Assembly: GCA_902557965.1 (NCBI GenBank)
Contig: CACECK010000002.1
Coordinates: 124,001-188,000 of the forward strand
Reading direction: 5' to 3'
Length of the DNA stretch: 64,000 bases
Source of the DNA: an uncultured SAR86 cluster bacterium
GTDB taxonomy: Bacteria > Pseudomonadota > Gammaproteobacteria > Magnimaribacterales > D2472
The position numbers and the translations under genes are program-made. Positions 22,902 through 26,063 of the stretch are shown piece after piece; position 1 is the stretch's first letter, and every line of letters begins with the position of its first letter. The notes below the pieces were generated by a model that saw nothing but the letters and a program-made list of their open reading frames with translations, ran no database searches and was not told where the DNA came from.

Positions 22902-23291
22902 TTAAAGTTCGCCTTTTTCTCTTAGATTTGCTCTAATTTGAGTTGCGCTTATCGAGGAGATTTCTTCTTCAAAAACTTCTTCTTCGAATTTGTAACCAAC
23001 TCCTCTACCGAAGGTAATATTAGTTATATTAGGTACCAGCATGATTTCGTAGTCTTTACCTCTTTTGTAATTATCTAATAATAAATTTTCTTCAATATTC
23101 TTACATACTGTGTCCCAGCAAAAAGGATTATCATCTTGTCCTTCTCCCCCTGAAACACCTTCAACATCTCTTACTTGAATAATCACTTGCCCAGTTTTCT
23201 CTATACATCTTTTAAAAAGTTCTTGATGACCTTTATGCCATGGCTGCCATCTTCCAAGCATTTGCACAGTTGGTTTTTTCCAATCAAACAT
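22902..23291 (-). CDS. Small adenylyl/cytidylyltransferase-like protein
   Basis: 129 aa; GRWQPWHKGHQELFKR (HxGH), C-terminal ISATQIRANL (ISxTxxR). Confidence 0.85.
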   Translation of the reverse strand: MFDWKKPTVQMLGRWQPWHKGHQELFKRCIEKTGQVIIQVRDVEGVSGGEGQDDNPFCWDTVCKNIEENLLLDNYKRGKDYEIMLVPNITNITFGRGVGYKFEEEVFEEEISSISATQIRANLREKGEL

Positions 23292-23694
23292 TATTCAAAA
23301 TTTCCCTTGCAATCATTTCATGATTCGAATCGTTCATTTCCGTAATTCTAAAATTCACATCAGAAGGCTCTTCAAACATTTTATTAGTATCCTCATACCT
23401 TCCTTCTTTAATTGTATTCATCCATATTGTTATATCAGGATCAAAATTATCTTTAGTTTTTTTTGTTGGACATACAAAATCACATATCACCATACGACCA
23501 TGTTTTTTTTCAAAATCTGCTAAATTTTTCATCCTGAGACTTTGTCTGATTCTTCCCTGTGGTGAGAAATCCCAATCATTTGCCATATCTCTGACTATAT
23601 CCGCGTTATACCAAGCAGCCTCAAGAAGGGGCTGCAGTCTTTTTGCTAAATATGTTTTACCACTTCCAGGAAGACCCATTATTAATATTTTCAT
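23284..23694 (-). CDS. P-loop kinase, adenylylsulfate kinase-like
   Basis: 136 aa; Walker A GLPGSGKT; NADIVRDMANDWDFSPQGRIRQSLRM resembles the APS-kinase DGDxVR…FSxxDRxxNIRR region. Confidence 0.82.
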   Translation of the reverse strand: MKILIMGLPGSGKTYLAKRLQPLLEAAWYNADIVRDMANDWDFSPQGRIRQSLRMKNLADFEKKHGRMVICDFVCPTKKTKDNFDPDITIWMNTIKEGRYEDTNKMFEEPSDVNFRITEMNDSNHEMIAREILNNV

Positions 23695-24797
23695 TATCTT
23701 AATTTCGTAATGCTAAAAATTTCATTCTTGAATTGAATAAGTTTTTCATTATCAATTGCTTTTTTAACTTTATTAAATGCACGTTGATTTTTTTCTAGAC
23801 CTTGAATATCTTTTTCAGGTATTTGACCTACATACAAAATGTTAGCCCATTTAGCATCCATATTATGGCCAAATAGTTCTGTAACAGTCTGATCAGGAGC
23901 TTTTCTAAAATTAAAAAAGTAGCTTTTTGGCATACCAAAATTAAATTTATTATTCTCAACAATCGGATTATTTTTTAGGTACTCAATAATATCTTTTGCA
24001 GTATTTGGAAATGCTTCTTTTTCTTTAAAAGCTATTTTTAAAATCTTTTGGATAGAATCTCCACCGCAAGAATGAGTTATTAAAAGCTTGCCAGACTTAT
24101 TTAACAATTTCATTAATGGACCTATTACATTATTCACTTTTATCTTCACAGAAGACGCAGCTCTGTATGCTTGTGAGGCAATAATTAGATCGTAATTATT
24201 GTTTTTATAGTCATTTTTTAGGAAGTGCTCTAGATGTCTTTTATTATCTTCACGATAAATTCTAATAATACAAGGATTTGAATAAGATGTTCTATCATTT
24301 TTATCGATCTCAATTCCCCAATTCTTCTTAATAAAATTACTTAGCTTAGTTCCAGTTATTTGAGTATTAAAGTCAAACGAGTTATCGCTTTTAAGAATTA
24401 AATTGTATTCTTTCACTTTTTTATTTTTAATCTTTGATGAGCTTTCAATATAACCAACTTCAGAAAATTTTACATTAGTCATTGTTAGTAACATGTTAGG
24501 ATGTTCTACAAATCTATCTGGCATTTTTTCTAAAGTGTTCTTTAGATCCTCATAACTAATTTCTTTTCCAGATATCAGAAGCGATGTATATGGATGATAT
24601 CTATGAAAACTTTTTATAACATTTGATGTTATTGTTCCATCTCCTGTTCCAGCATCAAGAATTCTTAGGTAAGATTTATTTAGTGATAAAGATGCAATGT
24701 GTGGATAAATTTTTGATGAAATAGCCTTCTTTTCGCTCGTGTTTTGTATGAATGATAGATACTTTAATCTATCATCAAAAAATCTTTTTTTCCCCAT
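23694..24797 (-). CDS. Class I SAM-dependent methyltransferase-like protein
   Basis: Motif I LRILDAGTGDGTITSNV; Rossmann-like LLNKSGKLLITHSCGG. Listed start 24809 is TTG; in-frame ATG at 24797. Confidence 0.7.
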   Translation of the reverse strand: MGKKRFFDDRLKYLSFIQNTSEKKAISSKIYPHIASLSLNKSYLRILDAGTGDGTITSNVIKSFHRYHPYTSLLISGKEISYEDLKNTLEKMPDRFVEHPNMLLTMTNVKFSEVGYIESSSKIKNKKVKEYNLILKSDNSFDFNTQITGTKLSNFIKKNWGIEIDKNDRTSYSNPCIIRIYREDNKRHLEHFLKNDYKNNNYDLIIASQAYRAASSVKIKVNNVIGPLMKLLNKSGKLLITHSCGGDSIQKILKIAFKEKEAFPNTAKDIIEYLKNNPIVENNKFNFGMPKSYFFNFRKAPDQTVTELFGHNMDAKWANILYVGQIPEKDIQGLEKNQRAFNKVKKAIDNEKLIQFKNEIFSITKLR

Positions 24798-24908
24798 AAA
24801 AATATCCAAAAATTAGATGTATAAATGATAATCGAAATAAAGAAATAATGCATTTACTCATAGGATATTTTGAGATTAAAATAGCATAAAAATCTAGGGG
24901 GAATTTTT

Positions 24909-26063
24909 ATGACAGAATCACAGCTACCATTATTAATTGGAATAGGAACACGTGTAAGAAAATCTCCATATTATGAGTCTAATTTGAAATATGGTGTTAC
25001 AGGCTTTACTGTCTATAACAAAATGTATCTGCCAACTGCTTTCTCTGGACCTGAGAAAGAATACGAAAGTTTAATTAATGATGTTACTTTTGGAGATTTT
25101 GCTGCTGAAAGACAAATAGAAATTACTGGAGCAGATGCTTATAATTTTGTCAGGTATATCCAACCAAGAAATCTAGAAAAATGTGAAATAGGTTTTTGCA
25201 AATATATTTTGCTAACAGATAAAGATGGCGGAATTGTTAATGATGCATGTTTATTGAGACTTGAAGAAAATAAGTTTTGGATTTCGCCTGGCGATGGAGA
25301 CGTTATTCTTTGGCTCCAAGGTATAGCAATTAATTCTGGTATGGATGTTCATATTATTGAACCTGATGTTTCGCCTCTTCAAATAAGTGGACCAAAATCA
25401 GGAAAATTAATTCAAAAGTTGTTTGATGGAAAACATGATGATCTGGGTTACTACAAAGCAGCTGAAACTTCTCTAGAAGAAATTCCAATGGTAATTGCTC
25501 GAACTGGATGGAGTGGTGAACTCAGTTATGAGCTTTATCTGCAAGATAGAAATTTAGGCAACAAATTATTTGAGTTAGTTTACGAAGCTGCTAAAGAGTT
25601 TAACGGAAGAGTAATTGCCCCAAATACAATAAGAACAATCGAGGGCGGTATATTGTCTTATGGTGGCGATTTTGGCCGTGAACATAATCCTTACACTATT
25701 GGGATGGGCAGGTTGGTCGATGTAGATCAAGAAACTGATTTTATTGGTAAAGAAGCGCTTAAAAAAATAAAAGAAAATGGTTTAAAGGAAAAGTTGGTTG
25801 GCTTAGAATTAGACGGAGAACCAATAATCAAAGCACCTGAAAATTTTTGGCCTGTGCATAACGAAAATCATCAAAAAGTTGGCAGAGTCTCAAGAGCCTT
25901 TTATTCACCACGTTTAAAGAAAAATATTGCACTTGCTATAGTTGATATTGATTTCTCTTCAGAAGGAACAGATATAAATGTTTCAACTCCAAATGGAGAC
26001 TTGGCTGCAAAAGTTGTTAAATTGCCATGGTTTAATGCTAAAAAAGAAAATAAACTTGATTAA
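24909..26063 (+). CDS. GcvT/aminomethyltransferase-fold protein, DMSP demethylase (DmdA)-like
   Basis: 384 aa; GVTGFTVYNKMYLPTAF…FGDFAAERQIEITGADA, ARTGWSGELSYELYL, LSYGGDF. Similar by eye to recalled Pelagibacter DmdA (VSAYTVYNHMLLPASF…WDVAAERQVEISG). Confidence 0.75.
   Translation: MTESQLPLLIGIGTRVRKSPYYESNLKYGVTGFTVYNKMYLPTAFSGPEKEYESLINDVTFGDFAAERQIEITGADAYNFVRYIQPRNLEKCEIGFCKYILLTDKDGGIVNDACLLRLEENKFWISPGDGDVILWLQGIAINSGMDVHIIEPDVSPLQISGPKSGKLIQKLFDGKHDDLGYYKAAETSLEEIPMVIARTGWSGELSYELYLQDRNLGNKLFELVYEAAKEFNGRVIAPNTIRTIEGGILSYGGDFGREHNPYTIGMGRLVDVDQETDFIGKEALKKIKENGLKEKLVGLELDGEPIIKAPENFWPVHNENHQKVGRVSRAFYSPRLKKNIALAIVDIDFSSEGTDINVSTPNGDLAAKVVKLPWFNAKKENKLD

Follow-up and report, generated by a model that had tools for sequence, protein, structure and literature searches.

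The closest described systems to the locus reported here are the bifunctional PAPS synthetases (animal PAPSS1/2 and bacterial Sat-CysC fusions), the APS kinase CysC (PF01583), the ATP sulfurylases Sat (PF01747) and CysD-CysN, the latter a PP-loop ATPase with a GTPase, and the archaeal-type NMN adenylyltransferase NadM. Phage-borne cysC is reported to be an auxiliary metabolic gene of assimilatory sulfate metabolism (PMC10914622), with no mention in those passages of a nucleotidyltransferase partner or of the cellular distribution of the gene pair described below. Most SAR11 bacteria lack ATP sulfurylase (PMC10356861), and in Pelagibacteraceae incomplete sulfate pathways, with aprAB conserved, belong to the core (PMC12636525). 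Since APS reductase is core and strongly conserved in SAR11, yet most SAR11 have no recognised ATP sulfurylase, the fate of SAR11 APS is unexplained (PMC10356861, PMC12636525). Here we describe two short adjacent genes, a kinase gene (K) and a nucleotidyltransferase gene (N), which we consider likely (probability roughly 70%) to encode a short APS kinase and an unrecognised small ATP sulfurylase, forming a two-gene sulfate-activation module. We found no description of a small ATP sulfurylase or of the K-N pair in the open-access literature.

The locus lies in a window of 64,000 nucleotides on contig C2 of an uncultured SAR86 cluster bacterium (G000), whose assembly comprises 1.05 Mb in 22 contigs and is 81.5% complete. 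The named genomes closest by N are those of SAR86 cluster bacteria (85-89% identity). We use K and N for both the genes and their proteins. The features of the locus are:

22902-23291, minus strand: N, a nucleotidyltransferase of the HxGH type (129 aa), predicted to be a small ATP sulfurylase
23284-23694, minus strand: K, a P-loop kinase of 136 aa, predicted to be a short APS kinase
23284-23291, minus strand: the 8-bp K/N overlap, ATGTTTGA, with the start of N within the end and stop codon of K, and conserved across bacterial and viral loci
23694-24797, minus strand: a 367-aa class I SAM-dependent methyltransferase-like protein, encoded upstream of K with a 1-bp overlap

The initial annotation had described three minus-strand genes overlapping by 1 and 8 bp; these reading frames and overlaps were confirmed, and the motifs that it quoted for the kinase and the nucleotidyltransferase are present in the translations. 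The stop codon of the methyltransferase (TAA) and the ATG of K have 1 bp in common (TAATG), while the TGA stop codon of K falls inside the first codons of N. The methyltransferase reading frame is also real, whereas its annotated TTG start at 24809 (minus-strand ORF 23694-24809, 371 aa) is disfavoured. Because full-length homologues either begin at, or contain, the Met of the motif MGKKRFFDD, the start is probably the ATG at 24797. As the annotation had stated, cysDN and sulfotransferase genes are absent from the window: our profile search of G000 found no match to CysD or Sat, and its two Sulfotransfer_3 genes are located on another contig (C6). A DmdA-like protein is encoded at window positions 24909-26063; its best NCBIfam match is DMSP demethylase, and we are unsure of its substrate because the score (337 bits) is below the 410-bit cut-off of that family.

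Judged by its sequence, K is an APS-kinase homologue. It scores 29.1 bits against Pfam APS_kinase (PF01583; cut-off 21.1), and its SAR11 and Microvirga counterparts score 30.9 and 54.1 bits, respectively. When a family profile of 39 K relatives was compared with the PDB, the top match was the APS kinase 2yvu (2e-11), PAPS synthetase 1 was matched at 3e-7, and most of the further matches were PAPS synthetases and APS kinases. The P-loop residues and D32, R35, F43 and R48 are invariant in these 39 sequences, and we take the latter four to be the APS-binding Asp/Arg/Phe/Arg of APS kinases. Canonical APS kinases exceed K by about 40 residues; K has a short lid region, and its score against the NCBIfam apsK equivalog (22.1 bits) is far below the cut-off of 138.7. 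There is also a weak match to the NadR-kinase-type family AAA_28. The predicted activity of K is the formation of PAPS (APS + ATP to PAPS + ADP).

The motifs GRxQPWHxxH, VPNI, GRxVGY and SATxIR and the residue R41 of N are invariant or nearly so. Across 292 N sequences, PWHxxH, VPNI, GRxVGY and SATxIR are kept almost without exception (HxxH in 292/292, SATxIR in 287/292 and RDxxG in 238/292, these being short motifs of which two are shared with NMNAT). The AlphaFold model of N (pLDDT 84.7) has its best Foldseek matches among NMNAT and PPAT structures (1ej2, TM 0.61 by query length; 4yp7, E 9e-4), with HldC and GCT among its structural neighbours. Since the model is nearest to NMNAT/PPAT, the predicted superfamily indicates nucleotidyl transfer and not the acceptor. 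The nearest named families are likewise archaeal NMNAT, although N is far below their cut-offs (26.4 bits against 127, and 25.6 against 181, in the curated families). No ATP sulfurylase was found among the top 50 fold or profile matches of N, and its score against Sat (PF01747) is 12.5 bits, under the cut-off of 24.3. Both N and Sat have an HxxH and an IS-x-T type motif, and where Sat has GRDHAG, strand 2 of N ends in an invariant Arg, mostly within RDxxG. Profile-profile comparison (hhalign) of N with Sat gave a probability of 1.5% with only the HxxH aligned, the Sat profile being thin (three sequences), and on this result we ruled out that N is a shrunken Sat homologue. Homology to CysD or CysN was not found either, N being an HxGH nucleotidyltransferase and K a P-loop kinase.

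K and N have an identical distribution among 80 related SAR86-order genomes, each being present in the same 52; the carriers come from families f1 and f2, with hardly any from f3 or f4. They also occur together in about 150 viral loci, almost always adjacent and with K first. In IMG/VR, relatives of K were found in 524 stretches and relatives of N in 148. The 8-bp overlap recurs, more often than expected by chance, in 73 of the 77 named-genome loci that hold both genes and in 91 of the 153 viral loci where K and N share a strand. PHROG 10255 spans both proteins, with K matching its first half (1.2e-28, positions 2-109) and N its second (2.7e-18, positions 124-228). The two are a single protein in Stenotrophomonas phage DLP_6 and Xanthomonas phage AhaSv, and fusions can also be found in the bacterial genome G445 and in Microvirga. 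The conserved gene order, the fixed overlap and these natural fusions suggest that K and N act together.

The viral setting of the pair is often a T4-like replication block (UvsX-like, gp41-like and ThyX-like genes, named by sequence reading) and sometimes a group of surface-sugar genes. The N tree places the SAR86-type copies in one clade and the SAR11-type copies in another, both amid viral sequences, with a weakly resolved backbone; this topology suggests separate exchanges of N between viruses and cells for the two types. Each gene also occurs without the other. N was found without a detected K in loci L244, L248 and L311; these N-only cases include Bacteroidota MAG contigs and one alphaproteobacterium in which N directly follows CysQ (L244:6877-7266; L311:8001-8402). 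A K homologue without N has a sulfotransferase gene as its neighbour on a Rhodoferax plasmid, and another, carried by a Rhizobium plasmid, lies near such a gene.

We analyzed the genetic contexts of the pair beyond the window. In family f2, a Sulfotransfer_3 gene (5.6e-39) takes the position upstream of K that the methyltransferase holds in G000, giving the order sulfotransferase-K-N. CysQ is the PAP phosphatase, and in SAR11-type alphaproteobacteria a CysQ gene (TIGR01331, over cut-off) is found immediately upstream of K-N; several of these loci also carry AprA/AprB, over cut-off, and a QmoC-like gene alongside the pair. In SAR11-type genomes, aprA has as its neighbour the gene for a 116-aa protein (L281:3855-4202) with no Pfam or NCBIfam match, which often separates AprBA from K-N. 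A plasmid of Microvirga lotononidis has the order NodJ-like gene, NodH-like sulfotransferase, K-N fusion, NodP and NodQ (Nod names by sequence reading). NodQ there is a CysN-DUF2061 protein without the CysC (APS-kinase) domain, and K would supply the missing APS-kinase step. The N half of this fusion is without SATxIR and GRxVGY while the K half is intact; since NodP and NodQ already make APS there, this loss fits redundancy. DUF2061, a small predicted membrane protein (L140:4790-5008, L205:5983-6210), separates K from N in some 16 viral loci and adjoins N in a single SAR86 locus; in Mesorhizobium it is flanked by a sulfotransferase gene and cysD-cysN. It may take part in sulfate activation. 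A sulfotransferase gene near K-N was seen in only 1 of 160 viral loci (L014:8424-9254), about 2.4 kb from a K-DUF2061-N arrangement and accompanied by KdsA-like and epimerase-like genes. The initial annotation had likened the genes to a "split, miniaturised PAPS-synthetase arrangement" before discounting the idea, N being too short and sulfur genes not being nearby. The cross-genome comparison reverses that judgement: K is by homology an APS kinase relative, the pair elsewhere adjoins sulfotransferases, CysQ, AprBA and NodH/NodP/NodQ, and the PAPS-synthetase comparison has become the better-supported reading.

Sulfotransfer_3 (PF13469) was detected in 50 of the 52 K-bearing SAR86-order genomes and in 6 of the 28 that lack K, and CysD over cut-off in none of 82 N-bearing genomes (the same 52 plus 30 further ones), compared with 253 of 398 Pseudomonadota in a comparison set; the Fisher values for these counts describe association only, because PF13469 and CysD are both distributed in lineage clusters, with SAR86 profiles following family, so that they are not independent, and many of the genomes are incomplete. 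Weak CysD matches below cut-off were seen in two N-bearing genomes, G022 and G048. Sat was found in three of the 82, one from the SAR86-order set (G048) and two from the further 30. G048 carries both N, located on another contig, and a pyruvate kinase-Sat fusion; the sole canonical ATP sulfurylase detected in that genome is this 717-aa protein (PK + PUA_2 + ATP-sulfurylase; L229:4951-7104). Since G048 has both, we dropped the idea that N is simply a replacement for Sat. N is the obvious candidate for the ATP sulfurylase that went undetected in nearly all N carriers.

The methyltransferase is a lineage-restricted neighbour and not part of the conserved pair. Among the 80 SAR86-order relatives it was found in 34 genomes, every one in f1, and it is thus confined to part of one SAR86 family; no viral relatives were found in the viral sequences searched. 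Two genomes (G013 and G030) keep the methyltransferase and have K-N elsewhere. In G030 it stands alone between the same flanking genes as in the window, and the region that holds K-N includes Wzz-like and epimerase-like genes. All of its Pfam matches are below cut-off, and its structural model is of low confidence (pLDDT 58), with SAM methyltransferases as the best Foldseek matches. The three-gene module for "kinase + NMP transfer + methylation" that had been proposed for this locus is therefore unsupported and we rejected it, because the methyltransferase is not co-conserved with K-N and the two come apart; of the proposed trio, only K and N are co-conserved.

The sulfate-activation reading of K-N can be set out as follows. 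N would catalyse ATP + sulfate to APS + PPi, or the reverse, yielding ATP from APS, and we infer the direction by host. K would phosphorylate this APS to PAPS, its homology being clear and its activity predicted, and the two proteins would act together in a kinase-first order like that of animal PAPS synthetase. The PAPS made in SAR86 would go to sulfotransferases whose genes lie at other sites of the genome or, in one family, adjoin the pair; SAR11, with the pair beside CysQ and AprBA, could also use it to drain APS made from sulfite. N would then be a third kind of ATP sulfurylase, with a small NMNAT/PPAT-like HxGH fold and no profile relationship to Sat or CysDN. On balance we favour the wider proposal that N founds a third, evolutionarily separate ATP sulfurylase family of SAR86, SAR11 and marine viruses, which would close the SAR11 AprBA pathway (APS + PPi to ATP + sulfate) and supply PAPS in SAR86. 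Several observations count against the sulfate-activation reading, namely the NMNAT-like fold of N, the negative Sat comparison, the loci with N alone, the mostly incomplete assemblies, the shortness of K and its score far under the apsK cut-off, the co-occurrence of N and Sat in G048, and the single sulfotransferase among 160 viral loci.

Other functions would fit parts of this evidence. The polysaccharide context raises the possibility that K phosphorylates, and N attaches a nucleotide to, some other small molecule or surface sugar for glycan decoration, which is close to the initial annotation; in several SAR86 genomes, and in many viruses, the vicinity of the pair includes genes for UDP-glucose dehydrogenase, Wzz, KdsA/KdsB or cytidylyltransferase-cupin proteins, and HldC and GCT are structural neighbours of N. 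We regard this as unlikely, since sulfated surface glycans account equally well for such neighbours and the CysQ, AprBA, NodH/NodP/NodQ and DUF2061 contexts are left unexplained. Somewhat less probable still is that K is a true APS kinase supplied with APS by AprBA or a host enzyme, with N acting on another anion or as a partner or regulator of K. The K homologues that occur without N beside or near plasmid sulfotransferases, the degenerate N half next to an intact K half in Microvirga, and the lack of profile homology between N and Sat are all consistent with it. However, the nucleotidyltransferase active site is conserved in nearly all of the 292 N sequences, the CysD and Sat searches detected no other source of APS in SAR86 N carriers apart from the Sat of G048, and the Microvirga motif loss occurs just where APS is already made by NodP/NodQ.

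The best fold and profile matches of N, together with the weak AAA_28 match of K, would instead suggest NAD salvage, with K as a nicotinamide riboside-type kinase and N as a small NMN adenylyltransferase in a split-NadR-like arrangement by which phages restore NAD. NadD above cut-off was found in none of the f1 (including G000) or f4 genomes, unlike those of f2 and f3. The lack of a NadD match in f1, the family of the window, is compatible with NAD salvage and gives no support there for NMNAT redundancy. The overall pattern is not complementary, however: N and NadD occur together in f2, and almost every f4 genome is without a match to either. The sequence of K is clearly nearer to the APS kinases, and the neighbourhoods examined carry sulfur and sulfotransferase genes and no NAD genes. 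We consider NAD salvage very improbable, and sulfate activation by K-N remains our preferred explanation.

If this explanation is correct, a 129-aa protein encoded next to an APS-kinase homologue would answer two gaps, that of SAR11 outlined above and that of SAR86, in which sulfotransferases are present, CysD is undetected and Sat was found in only one of the genomes tested. The published observation that most SAR11 lack ATP sulfurylase would become testable, and phage "cysC" could be reread as part of a two-step APS/PAPS module and not only as a single assimilatory gene. The carriers of K-N include SAR86 and SAR11, two of the most abundant bacterial groups of the surface ocean, and hundreds of marine viruses.

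In comparison with known systems, K-N resembles bifunctional PAPS synthetase in that an APS kinase and an HxxH nucleotidyltransferase go together, in some cases as a fusion and with the kinase first as in PAPSS, and differs in the small size of both proteins (136 and 129 aa) and in an NMNAT/PPAT-like N with no detectable Sat homology. K shares with CysC the P-loop and the FS....R block, having NADxxR where CysC has DGDxxR, and departs from it in its shortened substrate lid region and low apsK score. N follows the HxxH nucleotidyltransferase logic of Sat, with an IS-x-T motif near the end and an Arg-Asp after the second strand; unlike Sat (about 350-400 aa), it is without the PUA-like domain and is below the family cut-off. 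With CysD-CysN it has only the predicted reaction in common, the proteins being unrelated. NadM is closest in fold and profile, but the N family scores 24-30 bits against cut-offs of 127-181, N is shorter, and the Arg-Asp after strand 2 sets it apart from the NMNAT sequences aligned. Among phage protein families the pair belongs to PHROG 10255, annotated as "kinase". Phage cysC is already known; what would be new is PAPS synthesis with a previously unrecognised first enzyme.
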